Source of the DNA: a virus
Strand: one strand, 5' to 3'
IMG/VR virus record: IMGVR_UViG_3300009008_000211
Location: 1-26,423 of that record
DNA: 26,423 nt
The notes beneath the pieces are model-generated. The model did not search any database. It was not told the DNA's origin and saw only the letters and a program-made list of their open reading frames with translations. Positions 1,774-12,411 of this stretch are shown here, piece after piece. Position numbers and translations under genes: made by a program. The first letter of the stretch is position 1, and every line of letters starts with the position of its first letter.

Positions 1774-3147
1774 TTGCCACCCAACCACATAACCCGCGCC
1801 CGCATCGTCTACCCTATCCACGAACGTACACGGTTCTGCGGTGCCCTGCCCTACCAGCAACAAATGCACGCCAGCGAGCATCAAGTGCGCTTGTTGCAAT
1901 GGGGCGTGGGTACGGGCAAGACACAATGGGGCAGCGTGGAAGCCCTTGTCAATATGGCACGCTTTCCCGGCAAGTATGGCCTGATCGTTGCGCCGACTTA
2001 CCGGATGCTCAAAGATGCCACCATACCCAAGATCCAGATGACCCTTGACGCGTTCCGCAAGGTCAACGGGTTCTCACTGGTTCAGCACTGGCACAAATCC
2101 GACATGATTCTAACCGTGTTGGGCGGCGGCGAGGTGCGGCTACGTTCCAGCGATGACCCCGACAAGATCCGTGGGCCTGATTACGCGTGGGCGTGGTTTG
2201 ACGAAGCCTCGATGATGATGAACCAGGATATGATATGGGATATCACAACCAGCCGTATGCGTGCCGTCGCTGACCCCCGCATATGGATCACCACCACGCC
2301 CCGCGGCAATGATGGAATGTTGCGCATGGTCCATGAGCAAATCGCCGCTGGCAACCCGCACTACTGCTATTCACAGGTGCCCACGTTCCAAAACATACTA
2401 CTGCCGCCCGGTTACTGTGACCGGATGAAGGAAGAGTATAGCGAGGACTTCTACAGGCAGGAAGTGTTGGCCGAGATCGTTGAAGGTTCCGGCACCGTGT
2501 TTGGGCGCATGTTCAGCCGTACAACGCATATGGTTGAGTTTGACCTTGCTAGGGAAGTGCGCCGCAAGTCTGACGCGTGGGACATCTACGTTTCGATAGA
2601 TTGGGGTGACGTTTACAATCACGCAATCTATGTGGCACACCACCGCGAGAAAGAGCTTGATTTCGTGTTTGGTGAGTTGCTAAAGGACAACGGGACCATT
2701 GACCAGTTCCGCGAAGAGTTGGCTGAAGATGTGCGCAAGTTCCCGAAGATGCCCAAGCAGATCTTCACCGACCCCACCGGGCAATCCTACAACGGCAAGT
2801 TGCGCAAGCTGCTCAAGTACAAGGTTCCCGTCAACTACGATTGGCGAACCAACGTGCGGGATATCGCCTTTGGGGTTGAGTTGTGCAAGCGCCGCTTACT
2901 TTCCGCCAACGGTAAGAAGCGAACGCTTTTCGCTGCCAACCTTCTGCGCCAGCCTCAGAATAGGGGTAAAGGAAGGGGGATCATCCTGTCGCTTGAGAAC
3001 TACAAATATCAGTCTAGCCGTGATGGGTTTGCGTGGCGGGATAAGTTCGTGGATGATTCGTGGCATAATCACGCGGTAGATGCGTGGCGGTATTACATCA
3101 TAAATCGCTACAAGGACTCACCGGGGCGGGGGCAGTTGTACGTGTAG
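1774..3147 (+). CDS. terL: Terminase large subunit (packaging ATPase/nuclease)
   Basis: This 457-aa protein is a complete large terminase, the motor that pumps DNA into the prohead and cuts concatemers. The ATPase half shows Walker A GVGTGKT at residues 44-50, Walker B ending in WFDEAS at about 141-146, and the coupling motif TTTP at 173-176. The nuclease half has an RNase-H-like fold. Its first acidic site is in SIDWGD (D276), a second candidate is in FTDPTG (D333), and a third is in the C-terminal NHAVDAWRY segment. The start is TTG at 1774, with AAAGGA at 1763-1768 as ribosome-binding site, directly after the methyltransferase stop. The last 170 codons (2638-3147) have a second copy at 5353-5862. 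Confidence 0.96.
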   Translation: MPPNHITRARIVYPIHERTRFCGALPYQQQMHASEHQVRLLQWGVGTGKTQWGSVEALVNMARFPGKYGLIVAPTYRMLKDATIPKIQMTLDAFRKVNGFSLVQHWHKSDMILTVLGGGEVRLRSSDDPDKIRGPDYAWAWFDEASMMMNQDMIWDITTSRMRAVADPRIWITTTPRGNDGMLRMVHEQIAAGNPHYCYSQVPTFQNILLPPGYCDRMKEEYSEDFYRQEVLAEIVEGSGTVFGRMFSRTTHMVEFDLAREVRRKSDAWDIYVSIDWGDVYNHAIYVAHHREKELDFVFGELLKDNGTIDQFREELAEDVRKFPKMPKQIFTDPTGQSYNGKLRKLLKYKVPVNYDWRTNVRDIAFGVELCKRRLLSANGKKRTLFAANLLRQPQNRGKGRGIILSLENYKYQSSRDGFAWRDKFVDDSWHNHAVDAWRYYIINRYKDSPGRGQLYV

Positions 3148-3363
3148 GTTTTCCATTTCTTTCCGCGCAAAACGTAATGATTCCGGACGCTTGTGCGATG
3201 TTGGCGTGACTTCCGTGTTTGCTGGATCGTGGGTCAACAAAAAAACACAGGACACGCAAAAACTTGCGCCCAAAACCGCAATGATTCCGCTGGCTTATGG
3301 CGTGCCGGAAACTTTCTTCGAGAGAAGCGCCACTTTTTGCTATTTTTCTGATACAATAAGACC
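3148..3363. other. Intergenic region between terL and the HNH gene
   Basis: These 216 bases hold no convincing gene. They contain an imperfect direct repeat with the core AATGATTCCG at 3176-3185 and 3280-3289. The core is preceded by AAAACG or AAAACCG and followed three bases later by GCTT. They also contain the 11-mer AAAAACTTGCG at 3258-3268, which recurs in the other two large gaps, and an extended -10 promoter candidate at the right edge. No terminator hairpin with a U-tract is evident after terL. Confidence 0.6.
3349..3357 (+). promoter_or_regulatory. Extended -10 promoter candidate before the HNH gene
   Basis: TGATACAAT matches an extended -10 element (TGn followed by TACAAT, five of six to TATAAT). 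No recognisable -35 lies 16-18 bp upstream. The expected transcription start, 6-7 nt downstream, falls on or next to the ATG at 3364, so the mRNA may be leaderless. Confidence 0.4.
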
Positions 3364-3780
3364 ATGGAAAAGGGAAAGAAAACAAGCCGAAACGAAACCT
3401 GGGCCGGGATGAACTGGATTCGCCAGGACAAGCGGCTGGCGATCTACTTGCGCGACGGCTGCGCCTGTATGTACTGCGGATCTGGGATCGAAGACGGCGT
3501 AACCTTGACACTCGATCACGTCAAGCCGCACAGCAAAGGCGGCAGCAACAGTGAACGCAATCTTGTTACCTGTTGCGCCAAATGCAACAGCACGCGCGGC
3601 AATCGCCCGGTGAGAGACTTCGCCGCCGCTGTTGCTGGCTATGTCAACCACGGCGTCACTGGCGAAGGCATCTTGGCCACGATTCGCAGCAACACCAGAA
3701 AGAGCCTTCGTCCCTACCGGGCGGAAGCAAAAGAACTAATCGCCCGCCGCGGTTCTGCGGCCAAGGCGTTACACCAGTAA
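3364..3780 (+). CDS. HNH endonuclease
   Basis: This 138-aa protein has a classic zinc-supported HNH motif. The first pair is C35-x2-C38 (CMYC), then LDHVKPHSKGG with the catalytic D51-H52, an Asn at 66, and the second pair C71-x2-C74 (CAKC) followed by N75. Such enzymes nick or cut DNA. Next to terminase genes they either assist packaging, as in HK97-like phages, or act as free-standing homing endonucleases. Its position between intact terL and the duplicated terL fragment is compatible with a mobile homing gene. The start could be 3364 (possibly leaderless) or ATG 3409, which gives MNWIRQDKRLAIYLRDG, a beginning more typical of the family. Its substrate is unknown. Confidence 0.92.
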   Translation: MEKGKKTSRNETWAGMNWIRQDKRLAIYLRDGCACMYCGSGIEDGVTLTLDHVKPHSKGGSNSERNLVTCCAKCNSTRGNRPVRDFAAAVAGYVNHGVTGEGILATIRSNTRKSLRPYRAEAKELIARRGSAAKALHQ

Positions 3781-3784
3781 ACCT

Positions 3785-4173
3785 AGCGCCGCCGGGGGCC
3801 TTGTACCCGTGGGAGGGAATCATGCAGAAATGGACAGATGAGCACAGCATCGGCGTTGGCGTAAACGTGGGCTTTCTTATCGAATCTTCGCACGACTTCA
3901 AAAGCGGATCGCGGTGGCACTTGTCCGATCGCGCAGCGCGCGCCAACATGAGCGGCGAAGAACGCTCGTCCGGTTGGTGCGGAACCACGGACAATGTCGC
4001 ACTTTACGCGCACGGTGTAGGGCGCATCGTCCGCACCGCTAATAACGGGCGCGTGCTGCTGAAGCAGCTCACAGGGGAGGAAGCGCGGGCGGCTTATCTG
4101 GATCTGGGGCATCCTGACCTTGCAGACGAAGACCCCAATTGCTAAACACCCAACGGCCAGCCGGGGCCTTGTA
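3785..4173. repeat. Paired intercistronic leader repeats
   Basis: The gaps before the 107-aa gene (about 3778-3822) and the PLD-like gene (about 4143-4192) share a leader. Each begins at the upstream TAA stop with TAAAC and then carries GCCGGGGGCCTTGTA (about 3791-3804) or GCCGGGGCCTTGTA (about 4160-4173). A run-of-G Shine-Dalgarno and ATG follow within about 20-25 nt. The shared part covers roughly 25-30 nt with small gaps. Confidence 0.6.
3822..4145 (+). CDS. Hypothetical phage protein, 107 aa
   Basis: The ATG at 3822 follows GGGAGGG at 3811-3817, a good ribosome-binding site with 4-5 nt spacing, so I prefer it to longer versions of the frame. The product starts MQKWTDEHSIGVGVNVGFLI and ends with an acidic tail (HPDLADEDPNC). 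Two Cys and several Trp residues are present, with no metal-binding pattern, membrane segment or signal peptide. I do not recognise the family. It lies in a rightward accessory operon (HNH, this gene, PLD-like, HTH-like). Its leader resembles that of the next gene. Confidence 0.6.
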   Translation: MQKWTDEHSIGVGVNVGFLIESSHDFKSGSRWHLSDRAARANMSGEERSSGWCGTTDNVALYAHGVGRIVRTANNGRVLLKQLTGEEARAAYLDLGHPDLADEDPNC

Positions 4174-4191
4174 TCGGCAAGGGGGGGGCAA

Positions 4192-4851
4192 ATGAAACCA
4201 CGAAGCAATCCGCTTTTTGCGCACCGCGTCCGCGACCCGCGCATTGACGCTACCAAACTAGCAGACGCGACGCACTTGCAAGGACAGGAGCGCCGGGACT
4301 TTGTGCGGCGCTTCTGTCGGGGGCAGACGGCAAAGGAGGCGATCGCAGACTGGCGACCGCCGCTGTCAATGTTCGGGTTTACTAAGGGCCAGTTTTCATT
4401 GTCCGATCTGCTTGACGCAGTGCTTGACAAGATCGGCCCGGCGGCGCTGGACGTTTCTACATGGACAGCCGGTCACGCCGACATTAGGCACCTTGATAAG
4501 TTGTTACACAGTGGGCGCATCGCCAATCTGCGTCTTTTGGTTGACGGCAGTTTCGCACAGCGCCAGCCGCAGATCCTGAAGTCGGCGGTTGACCGCTTTG
4601 GCAACGAGTCTATCCGCGTCTGCAACAATCACGCAAAATTCATGCTTCTGCGGAACGACGCCGCAAGCGTGGCGATCAAGACCTCGATGAACCTGAATTA
4701 CAATCCGCGCTTTGAGGACTTTGACATAACTTGCGATCCTGGCCTGTGCGACTTCTTGCAGGAAGTTGTTGGCGACCTGTGGGAGCAAGCGCGGGGCAAC
4801 CTGACAAAGAAGGCAGCAATGGAAGCCTTCGGAGGGCAAATAAATGGATGA
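4192..4851 (+). CDS. Phospholipase-D-fold (HKD) family phage protein
   Basis: The ATG at 4192 is preceded by eight G (4181-4188), giving a 219-aa product. The C-terminal half has the single HKD-type signature NNHAKFMLL (H147, K149), followed by SMNLNYNPRFEDFD with conserved-looking Asn residues at 167 and 169 and acidic E175. The strand LRLLVDGSF precedes it (113-121). Proteins with one HxK motif usually dimerise to form the active site; known members are endonucleases or phosphodiesterases. Phage homologues with an HAK...NLNxNPRxExF pattern occur near terminase genes, but their function is not established to my knowledge. The last bases overlap the next gene. There is no signal peptide, so it is cytoplasmic. 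Confidence 0.75.
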   Translation: MKPRSNPLFAHRVRDPRIDATKLADATHLQGQERRDFVRRFCRGQTAKEAIADWRPPLSMFGFTKGQFSLSDLLDAVLDKIGPAALDVSTWTAGHADIRHLDKLLHSGRIANLRLLVDGSFAQRQPQILKSAVDRFGNESIRVCNNHAKFMLLRNDAASVAIKTSMNLNYNPRFEDFDITCDPGLCDFLQEVVGDLWEQARGNLTKKAAMEAFGGQING

Positions 4852-5128
4852 CCTGCACGCGGTTGTTATTGGCTTTGTTGTGGACGGGAATACCCGCGGC
4901 GATATTGTAGAGTGGTTGGCCAAAAAACGCACTGACTGCAAAGACCCAGGCAAGGCATTTGATGCGGCGTGCGATGCGATCCGCAAGTCTTATCTGGAAC
5001 TCCATGGACACTATCACCCGTGGGTTGTCGTGGGGCTAAAAGAGCTTTATCGGCGCTGCGTTGAGATTGGCGACCACAAGACTGCGGCGGGGATTCTGAA
5101 GGACATCTACAAGTTGACGCCACGATAA
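4844..5128 (+). CDS. HTH-like small protein, candidate small terminase subunit
   Basis: The start ATG at 4844 overlaps the upstream stop by 8 nt and has GGAGGG about 7 nt before it. The 94-aa product has an N-terminal segment FVVDGNTRGDIVEWLAKK that could form a helix-turn-helix. The C-terminal helices (LKELYRRCVEIGDHKTAAGI, then LKDIYKL) resemble the LYxxAxExGDxxxA pattern common in phage small terminase and related DNA-binding proteins. Supporting context: the fragment at 5353-5862 downstream is a terL remnant, so an ancestral small-to-large terminase order is plausible. The family call is tentative. Repeat A begins only a few bases after its stop codon. Confidence 0.5.
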   Translation: MDDLHAVVIGFVVDGNTRGDIVEWLAKKRTDCKDPGKAFDAACDAIRKSYLELHGHYHPWVVVGLKELYRRCVEIGDHKTAAGILKDIYKLTPR

Positions 5129-5358
5129 CCAACCCAACGCTTGAAGCGCGGGTGTCTAAGTTTGCCGGACTTGAACCGACCGTTACAGGTTGCCGCGAAC
5201 TTTCGCCCAAGGTTCCGATCTTCGTAGCACGTCAACTCCATCCTGGTATCATCGTCAAGCCCGCCAACCAGCGTGCGTGACCCATCGTCAGCCTCACCAA
5301 TGATACTCTTCACCATGCCCCCGTACCGTTCACTGTCTGACGTGGTATAGCCCACCAC
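5107..5358 (-). pseudogene. Truncated copy of the 117-aa leftward gene
   Basis: Reading leftward, this frame starts at GTG codons matching the second VV of MMVVGYTTSDSERYGG in the intact gene at 5967-6320. It then follows that gene closely to HPRFKRW and diverges at the end (VGYRGVNL). It lacks the first 23 or so residues, including the real ATG and ribosome-binding site, because terL-fragment sequence replaces them at 5359 onward. At DNA level this is repeat A (5133-5358), with 11 mismatches and no indels against repeat B. It is most likely not expressed. Confidence 0.85.
5133..5358. repeat. 226-bp direct repeat, copy A
   Basis: The copy runs from CCCAACGCTTGAAGCG to GGTATAGCCCACCAC. It aligns without gaps to 6023-6248 at a constant offset of 890 bp; I count 11 mismatches (about 95% identity). 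It directly abuts the terL fragment on its right, at the shared bases CCACCAC. Confidence 0.95.
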
Positions 5359-5862
5359 AAGGAAACTGACATTGATTTTGTTTTTGGTGAATGGCTACAG
5401 GACAACGGACACATTGATCAGTTCAGAGAAAACCTAGCAGAAGAGGTCCGCAAGTTCCCGAAGCCGCCAAGGTGCGTTTACACTGATCCCACTGGATCGC
5501 AGTACAACTACAAGTTGAAGCAGCTCATGCGGGGTAGGATTCCGATTCACTACGATTGGCGCACCAACGTGCGAGATATCGCTTTTGGGGTTGAGTTGTG
5601 TAAGCGCCGCTTACTTTCAGCCAACGGTAAGAAGCGAACGCTTTTTGCTGCCAACCTTCTGCGTCAGCCTCAGAACAGGGGTAAGGGTAGGGGTATCATC
5701 CTGTCGCTGGAAAACTACAAGTACCAGTCTAGCCGTGATGGGTTTGCGTGGCGGGATAAGTTCGTTGATGATTCGTGGCACAATCACGCGGTTGATGCGT
5801 GGCGATATTACATCATCAATCGCTACAAGGACTCGCCGGGGCGGGGCCAGTTGTATGTGTAA
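5353..5862 (+). pseudogene. 5'-truncated second copy of terL (C-terminal nuclease half)
   Basis: These 510 bp align without gaps to the last 170 codons of intact terL (2638-3147). The reading frame is open but begins inside the gene at HHKETDIDFVF. A TGA lies in frame at 5338-5340, and the first plausible start is an internal TTG at 5515. The ATPase domain and the first nuclease Asp (D276 equivalent) are missing, so it cannot be a working terminase. Its first 67 residues differ from terL at about 26 positions. From DWRTNV to the stop the protein is identical, with 24 synonymous base changes in 309. It looks like a relic or recombination donor rather than a functional gene, though a short C-terminal product of 115 aa cannot be excluded. 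Confidence 0.9.
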
Positions 5863-6010
5863 GTTCCCCCAATGCCAGCCATAGTTCAACTATAGCGTCA
5901 CTTACTTCCCCGACATGGTGTAGGTTTGCTGTGCGATCAACGATCCGCTGCTTGACCTGTAGAACTTCATCTCCTGTCAACTCTCTGCCGTTCTGAATAA
6001 ACACTCCCAT
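5816..6010 (-). CDS. Hypothetical small protein, last gene of the leftward operon
   Basis: A leftward ATG at 6010 has GGGGAG a few bases upstream, a good ribosome-binding site. It overlaps the end of the 117-aa gene by 44 nt. The product is 64 aa, starting MGVFIQNGRELTGDEVLQVK, with a predicted amphipathic helix through IVDRTANLHHVGEVSDAIVE. Its last 15 or so codons are read antisense from the 3' end of the terL fragment, so the C-terminus may have been created by the junction. I do not recognise a family. Confidence 0.5.
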   Translation of the reverse strand: MGVFIQNGRELTGDEVLQVKQRIVDRTANLHHVGEVSDAIVELWLALGELTHTTGPAPASPCSD

Positions 6011-6320
6011 CACTCTCCCCTTCCCAACGCTTGAAGCGCGGGTGCCTAAGTTTGCCGGACTTGAACCGACCGTTACAGGTTGCCTCGAACTTTCGCCCAA
6101 GGTTCCGATCTTCGTAGCACGTCAACTCCATCCTGGTTTCATCGTCAAGCCCGCCAACTAGCGTGCGTGACCCATCGCTTGCCTCACCGATGATACTCTT
6201 CACCATGCCCCCATACCGTTCGCTGTCTGACGTGGTATAGCCAACCACCATCATCGGCACAATGTCGCAATCGTCCGGCATGGCATCGCAGTCGATGTAG
6301 TTGCTTCGCTCAATTTTCAT
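5967..6320 (-). CDS. Hypothetical phage protein, 117 aa
   Basis: The leftward ATG at 6320 has AGGGGGC upstream and overlaps the end of the XRE gene by 11 nt, which supports translation in the same operon. The N-terminus is Asp/Cys-rich (IDCDAMPDDCD), followed by MMVVGYTTSDSERYGGMVKS, an acidic middle (GGLDDETRMELTCYED) and a basic tail (KSGKLRHPRFKRW). No domain is recognised. It may be a small regulatory or host-takeover protein, but that is only a guess from position. A truncated, about 95% identical copy lies at 5107-5358. Confidence 0.65.
   Translation of the reverse strand: MKIERSNYIDCDAMPDDCDIVPMMVVGYTTSDSERYGGMVKSIIGEASDGSRTLVGGLDDETRMELTCYEDRNLGRKFEATCNGRFKSGKLRHPRFKRWEGESDGSVYSERQRVDRR
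6023..6248. repeat. 226-bp direct repeat, copy B
   Basis: This partner of 5133-5358 lies within the intact 117-aa leftward gene. It continues beyond the repeat on both sides as coherent gene sequence, so B looks like the ancestral location and A the derived one. Confidence 0.95.
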
Positions 6321-6624
6321 TGGTGCCCCCTGTAAGCACTACGTCTTCGTGGCTGACTGTTGTGCGCAACATCTTGCGGTGACGTTCGCGCAGTTCGTCT
6401 TGCCCAAACCGCGCGGGCCTGTACGCTTCAATCACGAAGTCGGCAATCGACACTTCAAGCGCCCGACACAGGCGCGTCAACGTCTTCAACTTCATCCCTT
6501 CGTCGCTCCCTAGTTGCTTGCTGACAGTGGACGCTGACAGCCCCATGCGGGCGGCTAGTTCCTTCACCGTCAACCCTTTCTCTGCCATGATTCGCTTTGC
6601 TGCTAGTCTGGTGTTGGGTTTCAT
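6310..6624 (-). CDS. XRE-family helix-turn-helix repressor
   Basis: The leftward ATG at 6624 has a strong AAGGAGA ribosome-binding site and overlaps the preceding Lar-like gene by 4 nt. The 104-aa product carries a lambda-repressor-like HTH at about residues 18-38 (LTVKELAARMGLSASTVSKQ), continued by LKTLTRLCRALEVSIADFVI, the usual helices 4-5 of this fold. The C-terminal 35 residues are basic and unrecognised. It probably binds a palindromic operator in the divergent control region at 7240-7695 and may repress either the rightward structural promoter or its own leftward operon. There is no peptidase domain, so it is Cro-like or a small regulator rather than a LexA/CI-type repressor. Confidence 0.9.
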   Translation of the reverse strand: MKPNTRLAAKRIMAEKGLTVKELAARMGLSASTVSKQLGSDEGMKLKTLTRLCRALEVSIADFVIEAYRPARFGQDELRERHRKMLRTTVSHEDVVLTGGTNEN

Positions 6625-11589: not shown

Positions 11590-12411
11590 ATGGCGAATGT
11601 TGATAGGCCCAACGGGTTCCGACCTGTAACCCAGTTGGATCAAGTAGCATCTATTACTCTCTACCCTGTGGAAGCCGCACAGACTTTCGCACAGGGCGAC
11701 CTTTTGGACTTGAACAGTTCCGGGCAGATTGAACTTGCAACCGCTTCAAGTGGCGCGCTTATTGGTGTCGCCGCTGCCGCTTCTGCTGCACAAGCAGACG
11801 GCACGCAGGTTCCTGTCTATGCCGACCCCGATCAGTTGTTTGAGGGGCAGTGCAGTGGCACCTTTGCCATTACCCTGATTGGCAACGCTGTGGATATTGA
11901 AGGCACCACCGGGATCATGGAGATCAACGAAAACGCCATCACCAAGGGCGTTGTTCAGATCATCGACTATCCCCGTAACGGTCCTGATGGCAACCCGCAG
12001 ACCGTGGGCGCAAACTCCCGCGTGTTCTTCAAGATTGCCAAACACCGACTTTCCCCGCTCGTCAACATTGCCAACACGGAAGAGGCCGTTGTGCTTGGCA
12101 AGCGCCTGCGACTCAATGCCGGTGCCAACGTCGAAACCCTTGGCGGCAACAAGACCCTCACCGTACTTGACGCCAAGTATCAGAAACTTGATCCCGATGG
12201 CAGCAACCGGGATGTGAACTTGCCAGCCGAAGCCAGCAGCATCGGGCTTGAGTTCTGGATCGCCAATGCAGCAAACGGCGCTAAAAACTTGGTTGTAAAG
12301 AATGACGGAGCCGACACGATTCTCACTCTCAATCAGGACGAGGCAGCCGTGTTTATTTGCGACGGAACCGATTGGGTTGGAATGAACGTACTTTCCGCGG
12401 CCCTGACTTAA
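11590..12411 (+). CDS. Head decoration protein with a fibre-like C-terminal domain
   Basis: The 273-aa product begins MANVDRPNGFRPVTQLD, a beginning common in head decoration proteins encoded next to the major capsid gene. Residues about 20-155 form a beta-rich domain (FAQGDLLDLN...GALIGVAAAA...QVPVYADPDQLFEGQ). The last 95 residues (from ETLGGNKTLTVLDAKYQKLD) look like a separate small beta domain, with GLEFWIANAANGAKNLVVKN and AAVFICDGTDWVGMN. Similar segments end many phage fibre and tail proteins. The protein is therefore probably a capsid-surface decoration carrying an outward domain. It is directly upstream of the capsid gene, with AACGGAGG-type ribosome-binding sequence before its start. 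Confidence 0.65.
   Translation: MANVDRPNGFRPVTQLDQVASITLYPVEAAQTFAQGDLLDLNSSGQIELATASSGALIGVAAAASAAQADGTQVPVYADPDQLFEGQCSGTFAITLIGNAVDIEGTTGIMEINENAITKGVVQIIDYPRNGPDGNPQTVGANSRVFFKIAKHRLSPLVNIANTEEAVVLGKRLRLNAGANVETLGGNKTLTVLDAKYQKLDPDGSNRDVNLPAEASSIGLEFWIANAANGAKNLVVKNDGADTILTLNQDEAAVFICDGTDWVGMNVLSAALT

Follow-up and report, generated by a model that had tools for sequence, protein, structure and literature searches.

Phage mosaicism arises by illegitimate and homeologous recombination and leaves abrupt changes of ancestry, short joints and leftover pieces of genes. It is normally visible only as breakpoints in finished genomes. Lambda Red recombines genes that are 22% diverged efficiently (PMC2327257); since phage recombinases act in this way, breakpoints between diverged genes for the large terminase subunit (terL) are to be expected. 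Two further systems resemble the locus described here. Intronless homing by free-standing endonucleases (T4 SegF; the I-HmuI-like HNH genes of Skunavirus) shares with it a free-standing HNH gene, here just behind terL in a variable cassette, and elements that integrate at gene 3' ends and restore the gene, such as tRNA- or gene-end islands, share the combination of an intact gene, inserted genes and a displaced gene end.

The window analyzed here, 26,423 bp long, is one unclosed virus contig that contains no N and thus no scaffold gap. It carries a merodiploid region in which terL, an HNH/NucT cassette and the end of a DNA ligase gene are followed by a second terL 3' end, a spacer, a second ligase end and an HTH gene (Table 1). 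In contrast to the usual mosaicism, both products of an unequal join, namely, two terL ends and two ligase ends, persist, so that the event is directly readable. Its best explanation, which we consider probable, is one natural illegitimate join of microhomology size between two related phage genomes. The first-pass annotation had seen in the terL fragment a mosaic relic of a second phage lineage. Absent from it were the second duplicated block (R1 and R2 in Table 1), the microhomology at the joint and the terL-HTH order of relatives; with these, the fragment is no longer an isolated relic but belongs to one of the two halves of a merodiploid.

Table 1. Features of the terL region (coordinates refer to the window; E values where a family search gave the assignment).
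Feature	Coordinates	Strand	Basis or remark
Intact terL, terminase large subunit, 457 aa	1774-3147	+	Pfam Terminase_6N, 1.5e-14; 81% amino acid identity to L004
Cassette separating terL from the ligase-end repeat R1	3148-5132	+	HNH, NucT-like nuclease and two ORFs
HNH endonuclease	3364-3780	+	Pfam HNH, 1.8e-13
Cassette ORF without matches	3822-4145	+	No Pfam or PHROGs match
NucT-like PLD nuclease	4192-4851	+	Compare NucT-like nucleases of Gordonia and Arthrobacter phages
Cassette ORF without matches	4844-5128	+	No match in Pfam, PHROGs or phages
R1, ligase-OB ORF copy that is truncated and lacks its start	5133-5358	-	95% identical to 6023-6248
Junction CACCAC, at most 6 nt attributable to either side	5353-5358		Direct comparison: R2 AACCAC, intact terL CACCAC
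terL fragment, divergent part (terL codons 289-354)	5353-5550	+	33% nucleotide divergence from intact terL, dS about 1.3; GC 0.48 over 5353-5553
terL fragment, near-identical part including stop	5551-5862	+	Protein as in intact terL, 24 silent nucleotide changes
Spacer X, no similarity detected to the sequence 3' of intact terL	5863-6022		Sequence comparison
orfR (contains R2, 6023-6248), 117-aa C-terminal OB end of an ATP-dependent DNA ligase	5967-6320	-	phrog_114, 1.9e-9
Cro/C1-type HTH gene	6310-6624	-	Pfam HTH_26, 7.4e-13

The intact gene and the fragment are the only terL matches in the window. A terL profile search of viral contigs identified as close relatives only L003 and L004, which are nearly the same phage, and their duplicates L008 and L009; the former two were the sole close relatives across the collections searched, with a terL nucleotide identity of about 75%. 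In both, terL directly adjoins a homologue of the HTH gene, which lies 2 nt past the terL stop, an order that corresponds to the right-hand half of the region minus spacer and ligase end. The terL genes of L010 and L011 are 25 to 27% identical in the ATPase part only and are uninformative for the fragment. Terminase profile searches of bacterial and archaeal genomes gave no match, the best terL identity among annotated phages was 32%, and the structure prediction for terL (pLDDT 32) was unusable. Two differences from the relatives were noted elsewhere in the window. A DNA methyltransferase gene just 5' of terL, which contains four tandem 21-bp units (REYEDLR repeats, 1356-1460), is missing between the corresponding genes of L004. 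Moreover, the L003/L004 counterpart (L004 7573-9057) of the protein encoded at 11590-12411 is about 220 residues longer, and these extra residues contain two similar stretches, LKLGDDAGVSIVAGAADV and LKLGDDQGVSLIAGAADV, that the window ORF does not have.

The fragment pairs with the terminal 170 codons of intact terL (2638-3147 against 5353-5862), and the first-pass description of this alignment held in every count that could be checked. Both segments comprise 510 nt and align without gaps. Within codons 1 to 67, differences affect 43 codons, 66 nt and 26 residues. The other 103 codons, which include the stop, show 24 nucleotide differences, all in third positions and one of them in the stop codon itself (TAG/TAA), and no difference in any residue. 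The change point was placed after codon 66 (2835/5550) and was not reached in value by any of 20,000 shuffles (permutation p = 5e-5). NG86 estimates of dS are 1.33 before and 0.44 after the break, those of dN 0.31 and 0, and third positions differ in 30 of 67 as compared to 24 of 103 codons (Fisher p = 0.004). The divergent 201 bp (5353-5553), with a GC content of 0.483, are among the lowest 1.5% of the 201-bp windows of the record.

Part of the contrast at the protein level is relaxed constraint. The first stretch is the least conserved of this terL, with 67% amino acid identity between the intact gene and that of L004 as compared to 82 to 83% on both flanks. Constraint alone is insufficient because the ratio of residue differences between intact gene and fragment to those between intact gene and L004 changes across the break, from 26:22 to 0:19 (p = 1e-5). 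Synonymous divergence shifts as well, and there is therefore a real change of ancestry at this point. The recombination breakpoint that had been placed at about 2839/5554 is thus well supported by these comparisons, near 2836-2839 / 5551-5554, and the two parts can be taken to differ in age. As the fragment's version of the first part was absent from all other sequences searched, either of the two copies may be the recombinant.

The near-identical part carries information on the past of the fragment. With L004 as the outgroup, 7 of the 24 silent differences fell on the side of the intact gene and 7 on that of the fragment, whereas 10 were not resolved. Since about 28% of random changes in codons 68 to 170 would be silent, the chance that 7 such changes are all silent is about 0.28^7 = 1.5e-4. 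Because all 24 differences are silent and at least 7 of them arose on the fragment's side, the fragment derives from a terL under selection in another genome, as had been proposed from the first reading; this divergence arose while the gene was working and consequently predates the arrival of the fragment at its present place. In this position the fragment is dead. It begins at codon 289, without a start codon and without the N-terminal ATPase/Walker motifs that a functional second terL would need, a TGA lies in frame at 5338, and the earliest possible start is a TTG at 5515. It also begins downstream of Asp276 (motif SIDWGD); reading the motif and its location, we regard this residue as the putative first catalytic aspartate of the nuclease domain. 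A search of viral contigs revealed no locus representing the fragment's own lineage. Neither the exact strings common to both terL ends nor those common to both ligase ends were found in another contig, and neither fragment nor junction was found in any other record.

These data bear on an origin by simple tandem duplication in a single genome, after which the copies would have diverged or undergone gene conversion. The order terL-R-terL-R would fit such an event. However, a divergence of 33% over 201 bp next to silent-only divergence of 8% is impossible after duplication with a dead copy, and the sequences that lead from terL to the ligase end in the two halves (1985 and 160 bp) are unrelated, so that we regard this origin as extremely improbable. 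Both this duplication and intragenomic conversion were rejected because of the silent-only divergence. The conversion between the two copies suggested in the first-pass annotation, whose selected terL origin and breakpoint stand, is accordingly unlikely as the last event in this genome, because it would have wiped out the differences present until then, and a dead copy would afterwards have collected changes of every kind.

The second duplicated block concerns the ligase ends. For orfR, the match to the Pfam family DNA_ligase_OB_2 (E = 0.002) was under the family cut-off, and tblastn retrieved DNA ligases of podophage-size genomes (2e-7). No adenylation domain was found beside orfR, which may be either a relic or a stand-alone OB protein. 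The terL and ligase blocks are collinear (2638-3147 / 5353-5862 and 5133-5358 / 6023-6248), and the record contains no other repeats of comparable size. The match between R1 and R2 ends exactly at the first bases of the fragment, with 5 to 6 nt shared with terL, an overlap judged from the intact gene as a stand-in for the terL sequence that once lay upstream of 5353. As in illegitimate (microhomology) recombination, the joint thus involves few shared bases (CACCAC or less), and the silent-only divergence together with the change of ancestry at codon 66 points to partners from two different genomes.

A joint of this type calls for weighing an artificial junction, either an amplification or library chimera or the misassembly of two co-occurring strains. 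The record is unclosed, two strains with diverged terL genes in one sample are plausible, and chimeras in amplified DNA likewise use short homologies. On the other hand, with at most 6 nt at the joint, overlap or de Bruijn assembly from two correct genomes would not produce this join, although a chimeric molecule formed in amplification could give rise to it; the long exact runs, 52 nt between the ligase ends and 41 nt between the terL ends, would favor other joins. The record contains no N, and a chimeric molecule would need to have outnumbered the true ones. An artificial origin is therefore judged unlikely, at a level that still has to be taken seriously.

The cassette behind terL is absent at this position from L003 and L004, and no HNH match was found in those records. 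Its HNH gene starts about 220 bp past terL, and between these genes lie two similar non-coding stretches (3168-3210 and 3267-3305; CAAAAC..AATGATTCCG..GGCGTG) that are possibly regulatory or target-like. Five viral contigs encode relatives of the HNH protein with 58 to 77% identity; the similarity is confined to the gene itself, and the surrounding genes, as far as ORFs read by eye show, are not terL neighbors. The HNH gene thus appears to behave like a mobile gene, with relatives scattered over unrelated phages. The cassette also gave an endonuclease match to phrog_16945 (5.7e-43), whereas searches of Pfam and PHROGs detected no integrase or recombinase in it, its two small ORFs being without matches. 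The ORF at 4844-5128 was considered as a small terminase subunit and rejected, as only its place after the NucT-like gene would suggest this.

This gene content raises the possibility of aberrant homing, in which a donor HNH endonuclease would have cut the terL end of a recipient and the fragment would be the displaced native 3' end. Donor terL end, cassette and ligase end would have been copied by homology on one side, and the other side would have closed illegitimately at CACCAC within the recipient's own terL. The resulting product would show the observed anatomy, and both the position of the HNH gene (3364-3780) and the occurrence of its relatives in unrelated phages, away from terL, are in keeping with homing. 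However, neither a target site nor evidence of cleavage or a co-conversion tract was seen, the cassette is without an integrase, and homing normally leaves no displaced gene end. The donor tract must start 5' of codon 289, yet the comparison of the intact gene with that of L004 shows no breakpoint. Furthermore, HNH genes near terL often have a role in packaging, not in homing (PMC12724721). Aberrant homing is for these reasons considered quite unlikely. Still more doubtful, and to be given little credence, is a homing-type capture in which the HNH cassette would be a mobile unit that swaps in its own terL end, leaving the old end behind and keeping terL working. Elements integrating at gene ends differ in that here no integrase is present, the end repeats are 8 to 33% diverged instead of identical, and the joint lies at a microhomology. 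A cassette originally placed upstream of the second terL, in the manner of Gordonia phages, whose NucT gene lies 5' of the terminase genes, was also rejected; it needs two joins, leaves R1 and R2 unexplained and is less simple.

Returning to the join of two related genomes, we infer that two separate parents and a single event in nature were involved. One parent would have had the order terL, HNH/NucT cassette and ligase end, and the other the order terL, short spacer, ligase end and HTH gene, close to that of L003 and L004; the collections searched contained neither arrangement. The ligase end of the first would have been joined to codon 289 of the second parent's terL at the common CACCAC or a shorter stretch. 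The product would retain the intact terL, the cassette and the cut ligase end of the first parent, followed by the dead 3' third of the other terL and the spacer, ligase end and HTH gene of the second. The parental terL genes would already have been mutually mosaic, near-identical in the last 309 bp and strongly diverged just upstream; this mosaicism most likely preceded the join, or the end of the working copy may later have been swapped in from a third phage. Synonymous divergence between R1 and R2 is smaller than that between the terL ends (0.13 against 0.33, p = 0.018), and a single, uniformly diverged pair of parents therefore fits imperfectly, so that segments of different age are assumed. 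The parents, if there were two, would themselves be mosaics of such segments, which is normal for phages. The arrangement is predicted to be unstable. Loss of 890 bp (5133-6022 or equivalent) through recombination of R1 with R2 would restore the first parental order, and loss of 2715 bp through recombination of the two terL ends would restore the second.

The value of this locus hinges on the junction being natural. Because both duplicated blocks are still in place, together with the joint and two independent divergence ages, one sequence is enough to argue in what order the events took place; the segregation predicted above, with the loss of 890 or 2715 bp, is testable. The region would represent an ordinary phage process in an unusually readable and probably unstable state, which leaves the general view of phage mosaicism unchanged.
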